64,000 bases of DNA from contig NZ_AP021879.1 of the NCBI RefSeq assembly GCF_009689005.1, positions 6,481,724-6,545,723 of the forward strand. The letters are read 5' to 3'. Each line of letters begins with the position of its first letter. Position 1 is the first letter of the stretch. A program made the translations under genes and the position numbers. The notes beneath the pieces were generated by a model, which was not told the origin of the DNA, made no database searches, and saw only the letters and a list, made by a program, of their open reading frames with translations. The DNA is from Desulfosarcina ovata subsp. ovata. GTDB lineage: Bacteria > Desulfobacterota > Desulfobacteria > Desulfobacterales > Desulfosarcinaceae. This document shows positions 39,519 to 49,859 of this stretch, in pieces.

Positions 39519-40112
39519 TTATTTGCCCATGCCTTTGATTTGTTCTTCCAGCTGTGGTTTCAGTTTGTTGTAAGAGGTGATGGCATTGTTGACGCCAGCG
39601 CAGACCGCCCGGGAGGTAATGGTGGCGCCGCTCAGCGCATTTACACTGCCACCGTCGTTGGTCACCTTGAGAGGCGTACCAATCGGCTTGCCGGCAAACT
39701 GCGCTGAAAATTTGGGGTCGTCTTTGGCCATGGCGCCGAGTCCGGGTGTCTCTTTGTGCGTCGTGACGGCAATCCCGCGAAGGGTTTCGTCGGCCATGTT
39801 GATGGCGACCACCAAACCCACCTTGTCAGCAAAACCGCTGGCGCTGGCTTCCATAACGACCGTGTCCGCCGTTCCACCGAAGACGCCGACGAATACATTG
39901 CGCTCTTCCTCGCCATCCTTGATTTTAAACCGGTCTTCCACAGGATCGTTTTCGGCATCCTTGAGGATCTGTCGGATGGCGGGGCCCTTTACCAGGTTCA
40001 TTACCTGATTCTCAATTTTGGGTTCGGTAAAACCCTTCAACCAAGAGAGGCCCCCACCCGAAATGACGCTTAGTACGGTCAGAACGACCACCATTTTGAT
40101 CATTTCACCCAT
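39519..40112 (-). CDS. rnfG: Rnf complex subunit G
   Basis: Periplasmic-facing flavoprotein subunit with one N-terminal membrane helix (residues 6-24). The covalent-FMN motif SGATITS (161-167) predicts flavinylation at Thr166 by an ApbE-type transferase; no apbE is in the window. 197 residues, normal length. Its start is one base after the rnfD stop, so translation is probably coupled. Confidence 0.95.
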   Translation of the reverse strand: MGEMIKMVVVLTVLSVISGGGLSWLKGFTEPKIENQVMNLVKGPAIRQILKDAENDPVEDRFKIKDGEEERNVFVGVFGGTADTVVMEASASGFADKVGLVVAINMADETLRGIAVTTHKETPGLGAMAKDDPKFSAQFAGKPIGTPLKVTNDGGSVNALSGATITSRAVCAGVNNAITSYNKLKPQLEEQIKGMGK

Positions 40113-40113
40113 G

Positions 40114-41076
40114 TTACGCTACCTTTCCAATCGCCTTGGGTCTGATCTTGTCGACCAGCGGATTTATCAGATTGATCAGAAGAATCGCGAAGATTACGCC
40201 ATCCACATAGATGCCGATATTGCGGATCAGAACCGTCATTACACCGCCTAGTGTGCCGTAGATCAGCATGGGGACAAAATTGACCGGAGAAGTGGTGCTT
40301 TCAGTGGCCAGGAAGAAGGCGCCGAACAAGGTATAGCCCGTCAACAGATGAAAGACAGGATCGGCGAAGCGCGAAGGATCAGCCATGTTAAACAACATGG
40401 CGGTAATGTAAGTCCCGACGATAAAGCTTACACAGACTTCCCAGCGAATGATTCCCCGGATCATCAGATAGATGCCACCAATCACCAGTGCTAACCCGTT
40501 GGCACTGCCCAAGCCGCCCACTTGGCGTCCCATGAGCAGGTCGAGTGGATGGAGATGCTCTACAGCTGCGGGTCCAAAGGCCTTGAGGGCGGCCAGCGGT
40601 TCCGAAGTGGTCGGAAAATCAAGAGAAAAATTAACCAGACCGGCATCGAAATCGAGGTGGCCCTTGTATGAAATCATCAGGATAGCAATTGCCAAAACAA
40701 CCGGATTGAACGGGTTGGCGCCGATTCCACCAAAAATCTGCATGCCGATAACAATGGCGAGAAATGTCCCGACGAGGACCACCCACCACGGCGTTGACGC
40801 GGGCAGCATCATGCCCAGTAGCAGACCGATCAGAGCAGCATTGCCGTCACCCACCGTAATTGGCCGCCGCATGGCCCGGTTCAGCAGAAGCTCCCACAAG
40901 ATTGCCGTCGACATGGCCATACAGATAACGCCCAGAGCCGGTGCACCGTAATAGGCGATTCCTGCGATTGCGGCGGGAAGGGCGGCGATGATGGTGTGAT
41001 AGCTTCGCTCGGGAATCCCGCTGCCGTCATGCCAGAACGGTGCGTGGGAAACAATTAGCGTCTTCTTACTGTTCAT
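40114..41076 (-). CDS. rnfD: Rnf complex subunit D
   Basis: Polytopic membrane subunit (320 residues, about nine helices) homologous to NqrB. Conserved parts include FWHDGSGIPERSYHTIIAALPA, QIFGGIGANPFNPVVLA and FNMADPSRFADPVFHLLTGYTLFGAFFLATE. In most RnfD/NqrB proteins a Ser/Thr-Gly/Ser-Ala-Thr-Pro-Leu motif carries a covalent FMN; at that place this protein reads AAVEHLHPLDLLMG, so the flavinylation Thr seems absent. It overlaps rnfC by 11 bp. Confidence 0.94.
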   Translation of the reverse strand: MNSKKTLIVSHAPFWHDGSGIPERSYHTIIAALPAAIAGIAYYGAPALGVICMAMSTAILWELLLNRAMRRPITVGDGNAALIGLLLGMMLPASTPWWVVLVGTFLAIVIGMQIFGGIGANPFNPVVLAIAILMISYKGHLDFDAGLVNFSLDFPTTSEPLAALKAFGPAAVEHLHPLDLLMGRQVGGLGSANGLALVIGGIYLMIRGIIRWEVCVSFIVGTYITAMLFNMADPSRFADPVFHLLTGYTLFGAFFLATESTTSPVNFVPMLIYGTLGGVMTVLIRNIGIYVDGVIFAILLINLINPLVDKIRPKAIGKVA

Positions 41077-42349
41077 TCATCTCCTCCGCAGATAGGGTCC
41101 GGCCTAATTCATATTTTGCCAGTTTGATATACTGAAAAATCGGGATACGGGAGACGCAGACGTAGCTGCACAGGCCGCACTCGATACACGCATACAGATC
41201 GTACAGATCCGCGCCTTCGGCATATTGCCCGGCTTCCAGAAAGCGGATGAGCAGGTTGACCGGCACGTTGGCTGGGCAGACCCGTACGCAGTCTCCGCAG
41301 TTGATGCACGGATAGTCGCTGTAAAGGGGGATAATGCTCTTGTCCTGGACCATTACGGCATCGGTATCCGGTCCCAGGGGCAGATCTTCGCTATAGATGG
41401 CGTTACCGGTCATGGGGCCGCCGAAGATGATTTTGTCCTGATCATTGACCTCCACGCCAAAGGCCTTCAGGAGTGCGGCCACCGGTGTACCGATTTTTGC
41501 CCGGGCCATGTGCTTGACGCCCTGTTTGTCGATGACGGTGACGTTTTTTTCGATCGTCAGGCACCCGGTGGAGAAGGCCTTGCCAATGGCTGCAACGGAT
41601 TCGGCGCGCAGAAAATGGATGCCCAGGGAGGCCATACCTGTTTCGTCCGGCAGGCGTCCGGTGAGGCTGTTTAAAATCATCAGCGGTTGCGCATAGGGAT
41701 ACTGAGAGGAAAAGGGTTGAATGCGGGCATCCAGATGGCCCGAGTAGTTCTGAACGCTCTCCTCCGGAACAGCGATAACAATCTCTTCAATACCGGTCGC
41801 TTTTCTCAGAACTTCGATGCCGGCATTGATAGCTTCGATGTTGTTTTTTAGTACATAGAGGCTGGTGTCAATGAGAAGATCGGCATTGCCGCCGTAAATG
41901 ATAATGGTGCTGACCGGATTGCGTTCGTCCATCAGCGGCGCGAAGTCCGGTTCGCCGGGCCCGGCGGCGAGAAAACGAGTCAATGTTTCCAGGGATGGGG
42001 CTTCGGCAGCGGCGCTAAATTCGGGATCGATGACCTCATTCCCCTCGGTTTTAATGGTCACCGCCGTCCAGGCATTGCCGTAGTCAGCCAGAAACGGCGC
42101 CATTGCGCAAACCGTTCCGGTGACCGACGAAATCGCATAAACATCGTCATTTTCGTTTAACACCAGCCGCTGCCCGGTTTGGACCGGGGTGCCCACTTTC
42201 AGTGTGCTGCTGGCCTGCTTGAACGGCTTTTTGATATACAGGGTAACCTGCTCCGGTGCGGGAATGGCCACCGGGCTGGCAGATGCATCGGTGGCCAGTT
42301 CGTACTTGAAACAAGGCGTGGATAGACCGAAAAATGATCGTTTTCGCAT
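41066..42349 (-). CDS. rnfC: Rnf complex subunit C
   Basis: Cytoplasmic subunit that binds NADH/FMN and two [4Fe-4S] clusters. 427 residues: N-terminal lipoyl-like barrel region (PEQVTLYIKKPFKQASSTLKVG), Rossmann-like domain, SLBB-like segment, and the cluster motifs CINCGDCVRVCPANVP and CIECGLCSYVC near the end. In most RnfC proteins a glycine-rich NADH loop is prominent near the N-terminus; here the corresponding part is less clear. It begins the rnfCDGEA run, 75 bp after the cytochrome gene. Confidence 0.94.
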   Translation of the reverse strand: MRKRSFFGLSTPCFKYELATDASASPVAIPAPEQVTLYIKKPFKQASSTLKVGTPVQTGQRLVLNENDDVYAISSVTGTVCAMAPFLADYGNAWTAVTIKTEGNEVIDPEFSAAAEAPSLETLTRFLAAGPGEPDFAPLMDERNPVSTIIIYGGNADLLIDTSLYVLKNNIEAINAGIEVLRKATGIEEIVIAVPEESVQNYSGHLDARIQPFSSQYPYAQPLMILNSLTGRLPDETGMASLGIHFLRAESVAAIGKAFSTGCLTIEKNVTVIDKQGVKHMARAKIGTPVAALLKAFGVEVNDQDKIIFGGPMTGNAIYSEDLPLGPDTDAVMVQDKSIIPLYSDYPCINCGDCVRVCPANVPVNLLIRFLEAGQYAEGADLYDLYACIECGLCSYVCVSRIPIFQYIKLAKYELGRTLSAEEMNEQ

Positions 42350-42424: not shown

Positions 42425-42871
42425 CTATAGGACATGGCATTTGGAGCAGTTGTCCGATCCCGACTGCGGTCCTTTTTCGAACTGCTCATGGCATTCGATG
42501 CAACCCTGATGAAAGGCATCCGCACGGGATATCATTTCGGTGTCTTCAATGTCGCTTTCATCATGGCAGTCAAGGCAGCGATCCGGCTTCGCGCCATCTT
42601 CGGCGGGGACCTGATGGCATTCCCCGCAGGCGATCAACGCGCTGTCGTCATCCATGGGGTGATGATGACAATCGAAGCAGCTGGCCCCGTAACCGGTGGC
42701 ATCGGTGTGGGTGTAATGGTCAAAAAGGACTTTTCCCGCATTGGTCTGGTACATGATCCGGATGGGTTCCTCGGGCGCTTTGGCCGGAAAAGCCGCATAG
42801 CAGATTATTCCGACAAGCAACAGGTGGATTGCCAGACCGTAAGCAAACAGCAGCTGTTTCTTCGACGTCAT
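42425..42871 (-). CDS. Rnf-associated pentaheme cytochrome c
   Basis: A 148-residue exported cytochrome with an uncleaved or cleavable N-terminal hydrophobic segment (LLFAYGLAIHLLLVGIICYAAF) and five CXXCH haem sites: CFDCH, CGECH, CLDCH, CIECH and CSKCH. The spacing and extra His residues (HTDATGYGASCFDCHHHP) suggest bis-His class III (cytochrome c3-like) haems. It is the first gene of the Rnf operon. Similar cytochromes accompany Rnf in Desulfovibrio and Methanosarcina, so it likely links Rnf to periplasmic electron carriers. Start at 42871; a longer frame reaches 43072 but lacks coding character. Confidence 0.92.
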   Translation of the reverse strand: MTSKKQLLFAYGLAIHLLLVGIICYAAFPAKAPEEPIRIMYQTNAGKVLFDHYTHTDATGYGASCFDCHHHPMDDDSALIACGECHQVPAEDGAKPDRCLDCHDESDIEDTEMISRADAFHQGCIECHEQFEKGPQSGSDNCSKCHVL

Positions 42872-43223
42872 GTGGACTCGATCCTTTTTGAAGTTAGGTT
42901 GTAATTGTTGTGAATAGAGTGGGCTAAAAAAAACAAACCATCGACTATCATAATGCACAAAAGCTTTCAAGGCTTTATTTGGATCATTGGCAAGCCGTTG
43001 AATACTAAATACAAAGCCTGTATCAAAGGCGGGAAACCGGTGCCCGCGAACCGCTGACAGGAGAGCAGGCACGGGACGCGGACGGCATGTGAGAATTGAC
43101 GGGAACGGATGGTGGCTCAGCCGGAAAAAGAGACGCTAAGCCGTTCGATTTTTATTCGCGGCAGTCGTCATCGGCTTCTGGGTGAGAAGATGAACAACGC
43201 GACGGAACGCGGGGGGTCCCGGG
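42872..43223. other. 352-bp gap upstream of the Rnf operon
   Basis: No gene, RNA or repeat is recognised. The part nearest the cytochrome is AT-rich and should hold the Rnf promoter. On the minus strand TTGAAA and TATGAT occur near 42940-42990, but their 12-bp spacing is too short to call. Confidence 0.4.
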
Positions 43224-44795
43224 TTACGAGTTTCGGCCCCCATTGCCCGGTACACGTACGGACGGAAAGCGGGCCGTGTCGGTGTGGGGCAGGAATTTTG
43301 CCGCCGAGAAGCGGTTCATGAAATCCTGATTTACATTCAGCTCCATATAGGTGATGCCGTCACGGATTCGTTTGATCCGGTCGAAGCCGGATGGATCGGT
43401 CAGTATCCGTGCCGCACCGCCCAATGAACTGTTGCCCAGGCTCTGATAGCTTGACAGCGGAAGGTCGGGGATCATCCCGATGGTGATGGCCGACTGCGGA
43501 TCAATGTAGGCGCCGAAGGTACCGGCAACGAAGAAGGTTTCCAGCTCTGCCTGGGTCATGCCGACGCTGCCGGTAATGGTTTCCAAAATGGTGTACATGG
43601 CCGCCTTGGACCGGACGAGGCTGTCCAGATCGGCCTGGGAGATGCACAGATCCTCGCCGGTGCCCGACATGGCCGCCGGAACGACGATCAGATGGGCCAG
43701 ATCCTTTTTTATTGTGAAGCGCGTACCGCAACGCTCGGGCAGCAATTTGCCGCGGATATCGATCATTCCCGACCGGAACAGGGCTGCAGCCAGGTCGATG
43801 ACGCCGGAGCCACAGATGCCTCGCGGCGGTTGATCGCCGATGGTATGCACGTCGAACTGCATGGTCCGCTCCTCGATGGCAATCCGGTCGATGACCCCGG
43901 GGCCGGCCGTTGTACCCATCCGGGTCACACCGCCCTCCAGGGCTGGCCCAGCGGCGCCGGCACAGGCCATCATCCAGTTGCGGTTGCCCAACACCACCTC
44001 CGCATTGGTGCCCACATCCACCAGAATCGCCGTCTCTTCACGCCGGTCCATGTCGCAAAAGAGAATGCCGGCAATCAGGTCGCCGCCAAAGTAGCTGCCC
44101 ACATTGGGGAAAATCAGCACCCGGGCGTTCGGCCCCGCGGTGATGCCAAGCTCGGCCGCTTCCATCACCGGTGGCTGGTTGACCACGGGGATATACGGCT
44201 CCCGGATCATCCAGCGCGGGTTGAGCCCCAGCAGCAGATGGGTCATGGCCGTATTGCCGGCAACGGCAATCAGATGGATGTTCTCACATCGGATGGCGCA
44301 CGTCCGGCAGAGGGCATTCAGTTCCGTATTGAGGCCGTCGACGATCAGGCGGTTGAGGCGGTCCAGCCCATCGGGGGCGTCAACATGGTGGATGCGGGCC
44401 AGGACGTCGGGCCCCACGGTCGCCTGGGGGTTGTCGAAAACCCGTTCGCCCAACGGTTCGCCGGTTTCAAGATCGATGATGCGCAGGACCACCCGGGTGG
44501 TGCCCAGGTCCACCGCCGCACCGCAAAGGGGCTCGGTTGCATCGGGTGCAGTGAGGTGAACCAGGCTGCCACGGTCGTTTTCGGTTTTAAAGAGCACCGC
44601 CCGGGCCTGGTAATTCCACTGGCGCAGCTGTTCCGGCAGCGCTTTCAGCTGCGTCAGGCCGATATGCATGGTCGTTGTGCCCAACGCCTTGTTCAAGGCG
44701 GCGGCCAGCCGGTCGGCGTCGGCCGTGTTGTCGGCCAGTATGGGCGGCGTCAGGGTTACCGGTATGACCCAGCGATGGTCAGGGGCACTTGTCAT
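43224..44795 (-). CDS. ASKHA-domain corrinoid-activation-like protein
   Basis: A 523-residue protein of the RACo/DUF4445 group (ATP-dependent reductive activators of corrinoid proteins). The ASKHA ATPase core shows AAVDLGTTRVVLRIIDLETG, VAGNTAMTHLLLGL, ILVDVGTNAEVVLGN and ACAGAAGPALEGGVTRMG, and the C-terminal FFVAGTFGAYIDPQSAITIGMIPDLP signature. Well-studied members carry an N-terminal [2Fe-2S] domain; here about 90 residues without a Cys cluster precede the ATPase. It may therefore rely on a separate electron donor or do another job. Last gene of a seven-gene minus-strand run. Confidence 0.85.
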   Translation of the reverse strand: MTSAPDHRWVIPVTLTPPILADNTADADRLAAALNKALGTTTMHIGLTQLKALPEQLRQWNYQARAVLFKTENDRGSLVHLTAPDATEPLCGAAVDLGTTRVVLRIIDLETGEPLGERVFDNPQATVGPDVLARIHHVDAPDGLDRLNRLIVDGLNTELNALCRTCAIRCENIHLIAVAGNTAMTHLLLGLNPRWMIREPYIPVVNQPPVMEAAELGITAGPNARVLIFPNVGSYFGGDLIAGILFCDMDRREETAILVDVGTNAEVVLGNRNWMMACAGAAGPALEGGVTRMGTTAGPGVIDRIAIEERTMQFDVHTIGDQPPRGICGSGVIDLAAALFRSGMIDIRGKLLPERCGTRFTIKKDLAHLIVVPAAMSGTGEDLCISQADLDSLVRSKAAMYTILETITGSVGMTQAELETFFVAGTFGAYIDPQSAITIGMIPDLPLSSYQSLGNSSLGGAARILTDPSGFDRIKRIRDGITYMELNVNQDFMNRFSAAKFLPHTDTARFPSVRVPGNGGRNS

Positions 44796-44845
44796 TTCTA
44801 CTCCTTTAGGGATCGTCAGCGGTTTTCGGGCAGGGGGAAAGCGGT

Positions 44846-45598
44846 TCAGGCATTTTGGTGTCGGCGCATGGCTTTGACCAGCCGCGGCAGGATCGTGCCG
44901 GCCGCCCCCAACAGCGGCAGGTTGCTGATCCGCCGGGTGAGCGATGTGGGTTCGGGATTGATTTCGATCACCACGGCACCATTGTCCCGGGCAATGAAGG
45001 GCATGCTGGCGGCCGGTTGGACCGTGGCCGATGTGCCGACGACCAGCATGACATCGCAGGCGGCCGAGATCTGCTGGGAACGCAGCAGGGCGTCATGGGG
45101 AATCATCTCACCGAAAAAAATGCAGTCGGGCCGCAGGATACCCCCACAGCGGCATCGCGGCGGTATTTCGGAAAGATCCACCCGGGATGTCTCGATCGTC
45201 CAGTCACAGGTTTGGCAACGCTGCCAGGCAAAACTGCCGTGGAATTCGATGACATCGCTGTTTCCGGCCCGCTGGTGCAGACCATCCACGTTCTGGGTGA
45301 TGACCGTCTGGAGAATGCCCATCCGTTCCAGATCGGCCAGACCGATGTGGGCGGTGTTGGGGCGGGCCTTGTCCAATACCATTTTCATCTCTTTGATGAG
45401 AACATTCCAGACCGTCTCAGGATCTTCCAGAAAGGCATCGATGTGGGCGTATTTCATGGGGTCGAGCTTTTCCCAAAGCCCCCCTTTGCCCCGAAAGGGC
45501 GGAATGCCGCTTTCAACGGAGATCCCGGCACCGGTGAGGGCAACGGTTTTTTTTGCTTTGGCCAGGGTTTCGACTGCGTCTGCAAACAAATCTGACAT
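44846..45598 (-). CDS. cobB: Sir2-family NAD-dependent protein deacylase
   Basis: Removes acetyl or other acyl groups from protein lysines with NAD+. 250 residues: NAD loop ALTGAGISVESGIPPFRG (20-37), TQNVDGLHQRAG with catalytic His, zinc site CQTC with CRC about 20 residues later, and FFGEMIP and VVGTSATVQPAA motifs. The substrate-specificity residues are not clear enough to separate deacetylase from desuccinylase. It lies 10 bp after the MBL gene and 50 bp before the ASKHA gene. Confidence 0.93.
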   Translation of the reverse strand: MSDLFADAVETLAKAKKTVALTGAGISVESGIPPFRGKGGLWEKLDPMKYAHIDAFLEDPETVWNVLIKEMKMVLDKARPNTAHIGLADLERMGILQTVITQNVDGLHQRAGNSDVIEFHGSFAWQRCQTCDWTIETSRVDLSEIPPRCRCGGILRPDCIFFGEMIPHDALLRSQQISAACDVMLVVGTSATVQPAASMPFIARDNGAVVIEINPEPTSLTRRISNLPLLGAAGTILPRLVKAMRRHQNA

Positions 45599-45607
45599 GG
45601 CTATTGA

Positions 45608-46447
45608 TTAAAGGGTAAAGGTCATGTCCCGCCCCACGGCAAAACATTCCAAGGTTTTGCCCTTGCGGGCGATAATCTCGCGGCAGCGCTCGACGATATC
45701 GTCCACTTGGTCGTCGGTGCGCTCCTGGTTGAGGTGAAACAGCCCCAGACGTTTGACACCGGCTCGAAAGGCCAGGTCGAGGACGTCGGTATAGGACGAA
45801 TGGCCCCATTCAACGAGGCGGGCATACTCGTCAGGCGTGTACTCGCCATCGTGGATCAACAGGTCCGCCCCGGTACAGAACGCAACATATTCCTCGAATG
45901 GCAGGCCTCCGGGATGAACAAATCCCAGCTCGTTGTCGGTAATGAAGACGAAGGTCTTGCCATTTTCAATAAATTTGTAGCCTTTGCCGGAGTTGGGGTG
46001 GCTGATGGGAATCGGTACCACTGTTGCCGACCCGATCTTGAACTCCGCCGGATGGCCTTCTTGCCAGACGATTCTGGCCTTAAGGTCGGAATAGCGTACC
46101 GGAAAGTTGGGGGGGGCCATGACCTTGGAAAACATGCTCTGCATGAATTTTTTATGAAAAGGGGCACGGTGCATGTGGATTTCGGTGCGTCTGAGGAACA
46201 GCGGCTTGAAAAAAGGAAACCCCATCAGGTGATCCCAGTGGCCATGGGTGAGCAGGAAATTGTAATGGTAACGCCCCTGGTCGATCAAATGGTTGCCCAA
46301 ACGCCGGATACCGGTTCCCGCATCCACGATGATGATGTCGTCACTGTCGGTGTGGATGGTCATGCAGGTGGTGTCACCACCATACTTGATGTACTCCTTT
46401 CCGGAAACGGGAATGGATCCTCTGGAGCCCCAGCAGGTGATGACCAT
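45608..46447 (-). CDS. MBL-fold hydrolase
   Basis: A 279-residue metallo-hydrolase starting at ATG 46447 (MVITCWGSRGSIPVSGKEY). Metal motifs: LTHGHWDHLMGFPFF (H-x-H-x-D-H), ISHPNSGKGYKF and LIHDGEYTPDEY, with a GGDTTCMTI strand before them. The layout resembles RNase Z/phosphodiesterase-like or PhnP-like MBL enzymes; one could suspect a cyclic phosphodiester substrate, but this is a guess. Between prmA and the Sir2 gene. Confidence 0.85.
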   Translation of the reverse strand: MVITCWGSRGSIPVSGKEYIKYGGDTTCMTIHTDSDDIIIVDAGTGIRRLGNHLIDQGRYHYNFLLTHGHWDHLMGFPFFKPLFLRRTEIHMHRAPFHKKFMQSMFSKVMAPPNFPVRYSDLKARIVWQEGHPAEFKIGSATVVPIPISHPNSGKGYKFIENGKTFVFITDNELGFVHPGGLPFEEYVAFCTGADLLIHDGEYTPDEYARLVEWGHSSYTDVLDLAFRAGVKRLGLFHLNQERTDDQVDDIVERCREIIARKGKTLECFAVGRDMTFTL

Positions 46448-46472
46448 GCTCAATCTCTCTTGTCTCCGCCGG

Positions 46473-47303
46473 TCAACCGGCTTCACCGTAGAAGGTGGTC
46501 CAGATGCCGTTTTGATTCCATCGTTTGATAATTTTTACCGGCAGTCCGGCCAGTGTCGATTCGATTCGAGCCGCTTGGCTGCGCATCAGGCCGGATAGAA
46601 TGAAACGCCTTTTTTGTAGAAAACCGGTGCTGCGGATCAGCTTTTTCATGATGTCATAATGAATGTTGGATACCACAAGATCGCTCGTAAAGTCTATAAA
46701 TTTCTCGGCATCCCCTTGTGCGACGAGGACTTGACGGGACAGGCGATTGAGCCTGACATTGCGTTGGGCGGTCTGGGCGGCAAGCAGGGTCAGGTCCGTG
46801 GCCAGCACCCTCGGGCAGCCCAGACGGGCAGCGGCCAGGGCCAACAGTCCGGTGCCCGTCCCCAGGTCCAGCGTCGACTCCGGGATCCCGCCAGAAAATG
46901 CCAGTTCCAGGGCTTCCAGGCAGTCCCGTGTGGTCGGGTGCGTGCCGGTTCCGAAGACCACACCGGGATCGAGGATAATCGTGGTGTCACTGCGACCCAG
47001 CGCCGTGGCGTACCAGGGCGGTGAAATGGTGAACCTGCCGATGCGTTGGGGCGTGACATCACCGCCTTGCCACTGGTCGTAGGTCATGTGGTAGTGATCC
47101 AGCAGGACCAGATCCTGCAGATGGGCAACGGCCTTTTCCACCAGGGGAAGGTTAGGCCGGGTAAAGAAAAGAAAAGAGAACCCACCTTCTTCCCAGCAGC
47201 CGATATAATGGTCCGGATCAAAGGCGCTGCCGGGGCGGAAGCGCCCCGACAGGTAGTAGATATAAAGATCCTGATAAGGGTTGGCGCTAATGAGCATAGT
47301 CAT
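46473..47303 (-). CDS. prmA: ribosomal protein L11 methyltransferase-like protein
   Basis: SAM-dependent methyltransferase related to PrmA, which trimethylates L11 lysines and the N-terminus. 276 residues: an N-terminal alpha/beta domain of about 95 residues, then DPGVVFGTGTHPTTRDCLEAL and LDLGTGTGLLALAAARLGCPRVLATDL (SAM loop) and VVSNIHYDIMKKL. The FGTGTHPTT motif is specific to the PrmA group. Canonical PrmA has NILA at the substrate loop; here it is SNIHYD, so the substrate may differ. L11 itself is encoded at 57698. Overlaps none of its neighbours. Confidence 0.85.
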   Translation of the reverse strand: MTMLISANPYQDLYIYYLSGRFRPGSAFDPDHYIGCWEEGGFSFLFFTRPNLPLVEKAVAHLQDLVLLDHYHMTYDQWQGGDVTPQRIGRFTISPPWYATALGRSDTTIILDPGVVFGTGTHPTTRDCLEALELAFSGGIPESTLDLGTGTGLLALAAARLGCPRVLATDLTLLAAQTAQRNVRLNRLSRQVLVAQGDAEKFIDFTSDLVVSNIHYDIMKKLIRSTGFLQKRRFILSGLMRSQAARIESTLAGLPVKIIKRWNQNGIWTTFYGEAG

Positions 47304-47316
47304 CTCGGCAGAGGTC

Positions 47317-47994
47317 TCATTTGCTTTTCGGTAGTTGGTCGAGGTACCATTCCATGGGGTCGATCAGGCGATACCCCATGGCGACCAACTTCTTCTTGAT
47401 TCGGGTGACCGTGTTGGTCAGAAGATAGGGAAAAACAGCCCGTTTGCCCGCTTCCCAGGTCCGGGCCACCAGAACACTGCCCAGGGAGATGTTCTCTTCG
47501 GTGATGGCGTCGACGATTTTTTTCATCTGGCCGACCTTTTCCTCCACTTCGATACATAGCAGGGTGCCCGGTTCACGAATTCCCAGCACATTGATGAATG
47601 CCCGCAAAAGATCGCGCACCGATAGAATGCCCATGAGCCTGCCGTCATCGTCGACAACGGGAAACGCACCCACCTTCGCCTTCTGGATCAGCAACAGCGC
47701 ATCCGGGAGGGTATACATGGGAGAGATGGTTTTGGGATCGCTGGTCATGATGTCCGCCACTTTCAGTTGCGCCAGCTTTTCCCGCTCATCGGCCGTGCCC
47801 TTGTTTTTGATCATGCGATAGGGCATGGCACTGCGGATGTCCCGGTCGGTAACGATGCCGATCAGGAGCCGGCCGGCGTCCACGACAGGCAGGTGGCGGA
47901 TGTGGTTGGCGGCCATTTTCTCCTGGGCCTCGAAAACGGATGCATCCGCATCGATGGTGATGACTTCTGATACCATGGATTGGCTGACAAACAT
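47317..47994 (-). CDS. AcuB-like protein with two CBS domains and an ACT-like domain
   Basis: A 225-residue soluble protein: CBS domain 1 (residues 3-60, IRHLPVVDAGRLLIGIVTDRDIRS), CBS domain 2 (about 82-138, AFPVVDDDGRLMGILSVRDLL) and a C-terminal ACT-like segment. CBS pairs bind adenine nucleotides and act as energy sensors. The order CBS-CBS-ACT is that of AcuB, whose gene in Bacillus lies beside acuC; here too the next upstream gene is an AcuC-type deacetylase. Confidence 0.88.
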   Translation of the reverse strand: MFVSQSMVSEVITIDADASVFEAQEKMAANHIRHLPVVDAGRLLIGIVTDRDIRSAMPYRMIKNKGTADEREKLAQLKVADIMTSDPKTISPMYTLPDALLLIQKAKVGAFPVVDDDGRLMGILSVRDLLRAFINVLGIREPGTLLCIEVEEKVGQMKKIVDAITEENISLGSVLVARTWEAGKRAVFPYLLTNTVTRIKKKLVAMGYRLIDPMEWYLDQLPKSK

Positions 47995-48051
47995 GTTATC
48001 CTCCAGACAGTGGGTGATTAGGGAAAGGACGTCAAAGCTTACGTTCCGGAA

Positions 48052-49002
48052 TCAGGCGTCAAGCAGAATCCTGACATGGTTGGCGGCCAGTTCCCCCAGC
48101 CGCTCCAGGCAGTAGCCGCCCTCCAGGACCGACAGGACCCGGCCGGCGGCGTATTGATCGCCCATTTTCATGATCGTTTCCATGATCCATGAATAGCCCT
48201 CGGTGGAGAGGCTGATGTCGGACATGTCGTCGTCTTCATGGCCGTCGAAACCACAGGATACGATGATGAATTGCGGGTTGAAACGGTCGATGACCGGCAG
48301 CATGTCGCTTTCGATCAATTTTTTATATGTCCCATCCCCCTGGCCGGGAAGCACGGGTGAGTTCTTCGTGAACCCCTGGCCCGGCCCCTCGCCTTCTTCG
48401 AATTCCCGGCCGGTACCCGGAAAGGCAAAAGAGGGATGCTGGTGGATGGAATAATAGAATACACTGGGATCTTCCTCGAAAATTTGTTGGGTCCCGTTGC
48501 CATGGTGAACGTCGAAGTCGATAATGCCGATCCGTTCGACACCGTGGGTCTGCTGGAGGTAGCGGGTGGCGATGGCGACGTTGTTGAAGTAGCAGAATCC
48601 CATGGCCTGATTCGATTCCGCATGGTGTCCGGGCGGCCGGATGGCGCAGAACGCATTGTCCAGTTCGTCCTCCATGATCCGGCGGGCGACATCGATCACC
48701 CCGCCAACGGCCAGGAAAGCAGTTTCGTAGGTGTCCACGCACATCTGATTGTCCGGATAATCAAAGGTGCGGTTGCCGGAAAGGCAGACCTCTTCGAAAC
48801 GGCGAATATAACTTTGCGCATGGACGGTCTGGATCCATTTGAGATCGGCACGAACCGCCGGCAGAAGGATCAGCTGGTCCAGCAGCCCCGCTGCTTGGAT
48901 GCCGTCGAAAATGGCGGTAAGGCGGTCGGCCGTTTCCGGATGATAAGGTCCCGTATCGTGGAGCAGATACCTGTTGTCGTGCAAATAGCCTGTTCGTTTC
49001 AT
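48052..49002 (-). CDS. AcuC/histone-deacetylase-family protein
   Basis: A zinc-dependent deacetylase of 316 residues, from ATG 49002 with AAAGGACG upstream. It shows the active-site signatures RPPGHHAESNQAMGFCYFNNVA (tandem His), IIDFDVHHGNGTQQIF (Asp-His metal ligands), GPGQGFTKNSPV and VSCGFDGHEDD (distal Asp). Bacterial members remove acetyl groups from proteins (AcuC on acetyl-CoA synthetase) or from polyamines. The neighbouring AcuB-like and Sir2 genes favour a protein-lysine role. Confidence 0.9.
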   Translation of the reverse strand: MKRTGYLHDNRYLLHDTGPYHPETADRLTAIFDGIQAAGLLDQLILLPAVRADLKWIQTVHAQSYIRRFEEVCLSGNRTFDYPDNQMCVDTYETAFLAVGGVIDVARRIMEDELDNAFCAIRPPGHHAESNQAMGFCYFNNVAIATRYLQQTHGVERIGIIDFDVHHGNGTQQIFEEDPSVFYYSIHQHPSFAFPGTGREFEEGEGPGQGFTKNSPVLPGQGDGTYKKLIESDMLPVIDRFNPQFIIVSCGFDGHEDDDMSDISLSTEGYSWIMETIMKMGDQYAAGRVLSVLEGGYCLERLGELAANHVRILLDA

Positions 49003-49109
49003 AGGCGTCCTTTCCGGTGCGTCCGGGGGGTTAATAAAGGTTTGCAACTGGTTTTGACTGCCATTACGGGGCGTGACGATGCCTGGCGCTGCTTTTGGAA
49101 GATGTCCGC

Positions 49110-49859
49110 TTACGGGATGATCCGCTCGAAAATCGAATAGGCTGCCTTCAGCGCCGGATTGTCCGCATTGATATCGATGGTCGGGCGGCCGTTCAGGTCA
49201 AACTCGTAGACCTCTTCATCGGCGGGGATCACTCCGGCCAACTCCAGGCCGGCATCGGTAATCATTGTCTTCACCTCGTCGTTTGGCTCGCTTTTGGCTT
49301 GATTGATGATGATGTAGCTTTTACCCACGCCAAGTTTCAAGTCCTGGGCCAGTTTATGGATTCGCAGACCGGCCTGGAGCCCACGTCTGGAGGTGTCGGT
49401 AACGATGAGCAGAATATCCACGTTCTTGGTGGTCAGACGGCTCAAATGCTCCATGCCGGCCTCGTTGTCCATGACCAGGTAGGGATAATTGCCGGACAAC
49501 CGTTCCAGGAATCCGGACAACAGGGTGTTGGCCGCACAATAACAGCCGGCCCCTTCGGGCTGGCCCATAACCACCAGATCGAAGCCCTCCTCTTCCATGA
49601 CGGCCTGCTCCAGCTTCATGGACATGAACACATTCTTGGTCATGCCGCTGGGAACGATCCCCTTTTTCATTTCCTCGCGGGCATTGCCCACCGTTTCGGT
49701 GACTTCAAGGCCCAGGACTTCATTCAGGTTGGCATTGGCATCGGCATCGACAGCCAGCACCGGGCCCTTTCCCTGACCCACCAAATATTTGATCAGCATA
49801 CCGGAAACGGTGGTCTTTCCGGTTCCGCCTTTTCCAGCCATGGCGATGGATACGGGCAT
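49110..49859 (-). CDS. cooC: CooC/AcsF-type nickel-insertion ATPase
   Basis: A MinD/ParA-like P-loop ATPase of 249 residues that in characterised systems helps insert nickel into carbon monoxide dehydrogenase or acetyl-CoA synthase. It has the deviant Walker A MAGKGGTGKTTVSGML, AVDADANANLNEVLGL, and the family-specific Cys-x-Cys in GAGCYCAANTL that binds metal between subunits. It is the first gene of the minus-strand operon. No cooS, acsA or acsB is in the window, so its target must lie elsewhere. Confidence 0.9.
   Translation of the reverse strand: MPVSIAMAGKGGTGKTTVSGMLIKYLVGQGKGPVLAVDADANANLNEVLGLEVTETVGNAREEMKKGIVPSGMTKNVFMSMKLEQAVMEEEGFDLVVMGQPEGAGCYCAANTLLSGFLERLSGNYPYLVMDNEAGMEHLSRLTTKNVDILLIVTDTSRRGLQAGLRIHKLAQDLKLGVGKSYIIINQAKSEPNDEVKTMITDAGLELAGVIPADEEVYEFDLNGRPTIDINADNPALKAAYSIFERIIP

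Follow-up and report, generated by a model that had tools for sequence, protein, structure and literature searches.

The locus described here raises the question of why two lysine deacylases should be encoded together with relatives of the factors that mature carbon monoxide dehydrogenase/acetyl-CoA synthase (CODH/ACS), and whether the seven genes concerned form one system. They lie at positions 43224-49859 of the window, i.e., the whole 64,000-nucleotide stretch of the Desulfosarcina ovata subsp. ovata genome (a single contig of 7.63 Mb) that was analysed. CODH/ACS is among the oldest carbon-fixing enzymes, and little is known of how it is matured and how its subunits are modified. A sequence-only reading of the window had suggested that the seven genes work as one system, keeping the acetylation and methylation of CODH/ACS or linked enzymes in step with their metal and corrinoid activation. 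The present analysis points instead, with a probability of roughly two in three, to a composite operon, one part of which (part 1) would serve the CODH/ACS-corrinoid machinery, while the other (part 2) would carry out nucleotide-gated, general lysine deacylation.

Seven collinear, close-packed genes on the minus strand were confirmed, and Pfam agrees with every name that they had received (CbiA, Hist_deacetyl, two CBS domains, PrmA, Lactamase_B_2, SIR2, and the RACo linker, middle and C-terminal domains). The intergenic gaps from CooC to the ASKHA gene measure 107, 57, 13, 25, 9 and 50 bases, with the HDAC and metallo-beta-lactamase-fold (MBL) genes started at the first ATG. The earlier remark that no acetyltransferase is present is correct for the seven genes, no search having been made in the remainder of the genome. 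From the first gene onward, the operon reads as follows.

49110..49859, minus strand: CooC-family ATPase of the ACS-operon type (AcsF-like), first gene; CbiA; best match in the PDB, CooC 3kje
48052..49002, minus strand: Zn-dependent HDAC-family lysine deacylase, class II-like; Hist_deacetyl, 322 bits
47317..47994, minus strand: AcuB-like CBS-CBS-ACT protein, probable adenine-nucleotide sensor of the HDAC; best match in the PDB, AcuB 9s4w
46473..47303, minus strand: PrmA-family S-adenosylmethionine-dependent protein methyltransferase; PF06325, 137 bits
45608..46447, minus strand: MBL hydrolase, RNase Z/PhnP/phosphodiesterase-like; Lactamase_B_2
44846..45598, minus strand: Sir2-family NAD-dependent deacylase; SIR2, 164 bits; no Tyr-x-x-Arg motif
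43224..44795, minus strand: RACo-like ASKHA ATPase without N-terminal [2Fe-2S] domain; RACo core domains

The operon is old and widely conserved. An orthologue of the ASKHA protein (at least 44% identity) occurs in 109 of the 146 genomes of the order, from which 40 loci were chosen, best scores and longer contigs first. All seven genes recur in the same order in 16 of these 40 relatives' loci (contents rechecked by tblastn), and the CooC-HDAC-CBS run is kept in 25, which bears out the earlier expectation of conservation beyond this genome. Chance neighbours were rejected as an explanation, since the gene order is conserved across the 40 loci far beyond chance. An HDAC orthologue is present in 92 of the 146 genomes, and in 87 of these it lies on the same strand as CooC, at most 2.5 kb away. 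The counts given below of CooC with ACS-operon genes and of the HDAC-CBS pair come from a locus set drawn from two collections, in which some places are included twice and open reading frame (ORF) calling can miss genes; tblastn served to recheck the compositions of loci L039-L078, L189, L190, L215-L227 and L235-L239. The PrmA-like gene of Desulfatitalea alkaliphila M08but (L103) was found in this manner (tblastn, 52%, 269 aa); this cultured strain has the CooC, HDAC, CBS, PrmA-like, MBL and Sir2 genes together on a single contig.

Comparison of these loci shows that the operon has two separable parts. Part 1 comprises CooC, the PrmA-like and ASKHA genes and often the MBL gene, and follows ACS; part 2, the HDAC and AcuB-like CBS-ACT genes and often Sir2, is independent of ACS and probably nucleotide-gated. 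Seven genomes (G012, G015, G080, G171, G174, G252 and G253) lack both acsB and CooC yet keep the CBS-ACT gene, which has a full-length HDAC gene beside it in six cases and is accompanied by Sir2 in three. The HDAC-CBS pair stands alone in G171, G174 and G253, is joined by Sir2 in G015, and by MBL and Sir2 in G012. In G253, both flanks and the HDAC-CBS pair are 88-94% identical in DNA to those of its congener G122, whereas CooC and MBL are gone. The reverse arrangement, CooC-PrmA-MBL-ASKHA without any deacylase, is found in L215, L218, L219, L221 and L224, and 23 of the 85 high-quality CooC-bearing genomes have no HDAC orthologue. Since part 2 persists without acsB or CooC, part 1 alone can be linked to CODH/ACS. 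The tie to CODH/ACS drawn in the sequence-only reading thus stands for the CooC, PrmA-like and ASKHA proteins, by co-occurrence and joint operons, whereas an action of the deacylases on CODH/ACS is not supported: that reading named relatives with the cluster but no CODH/ACS as grounds for refutation, and for the deacylase half the seven genomes above are such relatives. A single seven-gene system would explain the tight linkage of HDAC and CooC, and would fit excerpts of an acetogen study in which Wood-Ljungdahl enzymes are acetylated and the top Wood-Ljungdahl methylation falls on CODH/ACS subunits (PMC11370222). Such a system is nevertheless unlikely in view of the seven genomes, the CooC-bearing genomes without HDAC, and the weak association of HDAC with acsB (P 0.03 in a high-quality subset of 97 genomes, 84 acsB-positive and 13 without acsB; all P values given here are uncorrected for relatedness).

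For CooC, the association with acsB is evident. Among 241 genomes of at least 90% completeness, 199 have both genes, 23 (seven family groups) have neither, 13 have CooC only and 6 have acsB only, so that the two disagree in 19 genomes (P 9.6e-18). Within genus g84, both genes are present in 4 genomes and neither in 13. Genomes with only a short, diverged CdhC-like match (G124 in the high-quality subset, G266 and G268 among the 241) were scored as acsB-negative. Of the 13 CooC-only genomes, three were examined for a corrinoid protein gene; two of these (G046 and G050) have it, and therefore acsB is probably absent from their assemblies only, whereas the third, G027, has none. The P-loop AGKGGTGKTT and C106-Y-C108 are invariant in 23 aligned rows, and the CYC is aligned in the match to CooC 3kje. 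CooC and AcsF carry a deviant P-loop and a CXC metal-binding motif. The window protein shares these features with the nickel-handling CooC/AcsF ATPases, a family found in ACS operons elsewhere, but differs in that its gene belongs to a deacylase operon and lies apart from the ACS operon.

The ACS operon of the window genome lies about 290 kb from the seven genes and reads RACo-AcsD-CODH-ACS-AcsC-MeTr, with RACo clipped by the end of the stretch; no CooC was found in that stretch. A split AcsD in this operon was considered and rejected, because AcsD is intact and the second match is a small ORF of low complexity. Only one CooC of this type is encoded in the genome; another CooC-like gene, located elsewhere, is 41% identical to a different CooC branch. 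Likewise, 16 of the 18 genomes whose ACS locus was read show no CooC match near the ACS genes, and the remaining two (G013 and G082) have a CooC relative of 43-46% there. Five genomes picked for a CooC near acsB (L228-L232) have it within the ACS operon or a short distance from it. A CooC-alignment scan of named genomes kept 80 loci of at least 527 relatives. Across all loci read, there are 18 where this CooC (at least 50% identity) accompanies AcsD, CODH, ACS or AcsC and the other six genes are absent. In L127 and L143, the order CooC-CooC-PrmA-ASKHA-RACo continues into the ACS genes; L141 shows the first four genes and then reaches the locus end. A tree of 79 of the 131 CooC rows, with a random 18 of the 70 deacylase-operon rows plus the window, places the operon-type CooCs, including those of L127, L141 and L143, in one clade (99% by the Shimodaira-Hasegawa-like approximate likelihood ratio test) beside the ACS-operon CooCs. 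According to excerpts of a 2026 survey of CODH operons, CooC is present in 62% of clade A operons and is not expected to be common outside the operon (PMC13056359); the displaced CooC described here qualifies that expectation, as worded in those excerpts. 

Two separate observations were made on ACS-related stretches. In L136, a CooC-AcsD-CODH stretch of bacterial type stands in a record labelled Candidatus Woesearchaeota, probably through a binning error. L249:866-7828 (also L248 and L250) encodes a CdhC-like protein of 250 aa (48.5 bits to PF03598, Pfam being run on L249 only) next to a CooC-like ATPase, two BcrA/BadF-type ATPases and two 2-hydroxyglutaryl-CoA dehydratase D-like proteins, i.e., an ACS-like fragment within a dehydratase or reductase operon.

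The PrmA-like identity of the methyltransferase is borne out by both Pfam and fold: the model (mean predicted local distance difference test score 92.7) matches PrmA-L11 complexes best, and FG.G.H.TT and N213 are invariant in 25 rows, including those of L127, L141 and L143. The two-domain fold and active-site motifs are thus those of PrmA, the ribosomal protein L11 methyltransferase, but the protein differs from it in scoring 122.6 bits against the L11 methyltransferase equivalog TIGR00406, under the cut-off of 183.15, in not being the genome's sole PrmA, and in being linked to ACS. A role as the ribosomal L11 enzyme was rejected because a second, higher-scoring PrmA is encoded at 3530273 of the same genome. 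The gene tracks acsB in the high-quality subset (P 1.8e-5) and is absent from 11 of the 13 acsB-less genomes, the other two being G027 and G046, the latter with a gene for the corrinoid iron-sulfur protein (CFeSP). METTL20-type PrmA relatives methylate electron-transfer flavoprotein (ETF) beta, and together with the PrmA family assignment by profile and fold this would suit an unrelated target, for example a ribosomal protein or ETF. Such a target is improbable, given the better PrmA elsewhere in the genome, the position of the gene within the ACS operons of L127 and L143, and its absence from most acsB-less genomes. In the Clostridium autoethanogenum proteome, the top methylation percentages of the Wood-Ljungdahl enzymes are on CODH/ACS subunits, which the authors call the first report to their knowledge; excerpts of that paper name no methyltransferase for it (PMC11370222). 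The PrmA-like protein may be a candidate for the kind of writer behind this modification, as far as those excerpts describe it, and one that is named and directly testable.

The ASKHA protein contains the RACo core domains (PF14574, 310 bits; PF17651, 181 bits) and matches RACo 4c1n with 357 bits, so the earlier naming as RACo-like stands for the core. It does not extend to the N-terminal [2Fe-2S] domain: the corresponding Cys motif is found in the first 150 residues of none of the 40 orthologues, vs all 20 RACo-type ORFs above 560 aa, and the AcsV score is 454.5 for a cut-off of 800. In comparison with RACo/AcsV, the corrinoid iron-sulfur protein reductive activator, the linker, middle and ASKHA core are the same, whereas the [2Fe-2S] domain is missing and the gene coexists with the RACo gene of the ACS operon. 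The ASKHA gene tracks acsB (P 1.7e-5), and in G085 and G122 it is split off the deacylase operon and stands beside formate-tetrahydrofolate ligase and FolD, with acsB on the same contig. The PrmA-like and ASKHA genes, which the excerpts examined do not name as CODH/ACS accessory factors, follow ACS across this sulfate-reducer order and lie in the ACS operon of two relatives. That the CODH/ACS-corrinoid machinery has a methyltransferase of its own in the PrmA-like protein, and that the ASKHA protein and full-length RACo together form a two-part corrinoid activase, is a tentative combination, held at less than even odds. If it holds, a writer, an activase, a nickel ATPase and nucleotide-gated lysine erasers would be under one control.

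In part 2, the HDAC protein has its best PDB matches in HDAC6, 5ji5 and HDAC4; among the 137 matches, the best 60 comprise class II HDACs and related bacterial proteins, and none of these is named class I. The CBS protein aligns with AcuB 9s4w over residues 2-211 (92 bits), i.e., as a full-length CBS-CBS-ACT protein, and retains Arg33-His34 of AcuB, invariant in 21 rows. In Bacillus AcuB these residues bridge diadenosine tetraphosphate (Ap4A), and R33E abolishes binding, according to excerpts of one of two 2026 papers in which AcuB inhibits AcuC, a class I HDAC, the signal being AMP in one and Ap4A in the other (PMC13121692, PMC13039410; structural and class data from PMC13039410). Of 82 places with the HDAC gene (at least 55% identity), 81 have the CBS-ACT gene directly after it, and the other is truncated by the locus end. 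The parallel with the Bacillus AcuB-AcuC pair, drawn in the sequence-only reading, holds for AcuB and is not strict for AcuC, because the window HDAC is of another class. Compared with the acuABC operon of Bacillus and Geobacillus, in which AcuB restrains the deacetylase AcuC, the pairing of an AcuB-type CBS-ACT protein with an HDAC and the Arg33-His34 residues are shared; the HDAC class, the lack of an acetyltransferase among the seven genes, the absence of the AcuC-contact residues and the setting among ACS accessory genes are different. With this pair, control of the AcuB type would reach a further HDAC class and a further phylum. The window genome also has eight separate HDAC-family genes above the Pfam cut-off (L001-L008), and a second AcuB-like CBS protein of 48% identity (L242:7303-7971; 4037302), near which an acyl-CoA dehydrogenase-like gene was seen and no adjacent HDAC gene was found.

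The best PDB match of the Sir2 protein is the archaeal Sir2 1ici. Tyr-x-x-Arg is the acyl-pocket motif of class III (desuccinylase) Sir2 proteins, and a desuccinylase role was rejected because the motif is absent in 15 aligned rows. For the MBL protein, HxHxDH, H150, D171 and H216 are invariant in 22 aligned rows, and the best fold matches are an ELAC homologue, YhfI, RNase Z and a PhnP-family diphosphatase; since the fold suits relatives of RNase Z, PhnP and phosphodiesterases, it leaves the choice of substrate undecided.

The activities and substrates that we infer for these proteins, and the coupling of the two parts, can be put together as follows. Part 1 would provide accessory functions to the CODH/ACS-corrinoid machinery encoded at a distance: nickel delivery to ACS is the most likely task of CooC, the [2Fe-2S]-less ASKHA protein most likely joins the full-length RACo encoded in the ACS operon in ATP-driven corrinoid reactivation (alternatively, it may open the corrinoid protein to an outside electron donor), and the PrmA-like protein most likely methylates a lysine or the N-terminus of this machinery. 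Part 2 would strip acyl groups off lysines, with the AcuB-like sensor binding AMP- or Ap4A-type nucleotides and restraining the HDAC, and with Sir2 reading NAD+; its substrates are probably enzymes generally modified by acyl-CoA. Co-transcription would raise both parts during acetyl-CoA oxidation.

Several observations weigh against this division of roles. The PrmA-like gene is absent from 18 and the ASKHA gene from 13 of the 84 acsB-positive high-quality genomes, and hence neither is essential to ACS; six acsB-positive genomes among the 241 lack this CooC type, and the co-occurrence P values ignore the relatedness of the genomes. G027 (96% complete) has CooC, HDAC, CBS, PrmA-like and ASKHA genes with neither acsB nor CFeSP and is so far a true exception. 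MBL and Sir2 occur with either part, and G012 retains MBL without ACS (L189). Two of the seven CooC-less genomes are less clear, G080 having CBS and Sir2 with the HDAC gene in two pieces, and G252 having HDAC-CBS-ASKHA (L238), with the ASKHA gene still present, on a short contig that ends at HDAC, which makes this locus uninformative on CooC. Regarding the sensor, the Geobacillus AcuB residues that contact AcuC are D89, E92 and M188 in excerpts of PMC13039410; the window protein has Y, P and T at these positions (hand-counted along the alignment), and the first of them is Asp in 6 of 21 aligned rows, by eye. Finally, literature searches found no biochemistry on the seven proteins, and no openly licensed paper was recognised as describing the seven-gene operon.

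A further explanation comes close to the composite operon proposed here and differs from it solely in denying any coupling: a general set of acyl-lysine repair genes, serving the oxidation of fatty acids and acetyl-CoA, would share a promoter with ACS accessory genes without functional contact. The gene neighbourhood is consistent with it. An acyl-CoA dehydrogenase gene, named by Pfam on one member and not part of the window locus, occurs at 15 of the 40 loci; at 14 of these it is divergent and either adjoins CooC or is one small ORF away. Phasin and UbiB-like genes often come next, further out from CooC. In addition, reactive acyl-CoA species acylate lysines of syntrophs, according to excerpts of PMC9676460. 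The order of the genes is nevertheless kept across many families, beyond the needs of promoter sharing, and co-regulation alone is considered somewhat unlikely, though less so than the single seven-gene system. Promoter and terminator scans of the operon gave no signal above shuffle level.

Other neighbours were also inspected. Rnf-like genes (window 39519-42349) and a class III cytochrome c gene (42425-43072) come after the operon in the window. Rnf was rejected as a member of the system because, among the loci examined, L089 and L120 alone have close matches (at least 79%) adjoining the operon; in L235, weak matches to RnfC and RnfD (23-29%) lie close to HDAC-CBS. Downstream of the operon in relatives (L062:10313-12073 and neighbours), a DUF6178 gene recurs, as do major facilitator superfamily-like and phosphoenolpyruvate carboxykinase-like genes; the DUF6178 cluster is present in 14 of the 40 loci, with DUF6178 named by Pfam on one member and the other two by eye.

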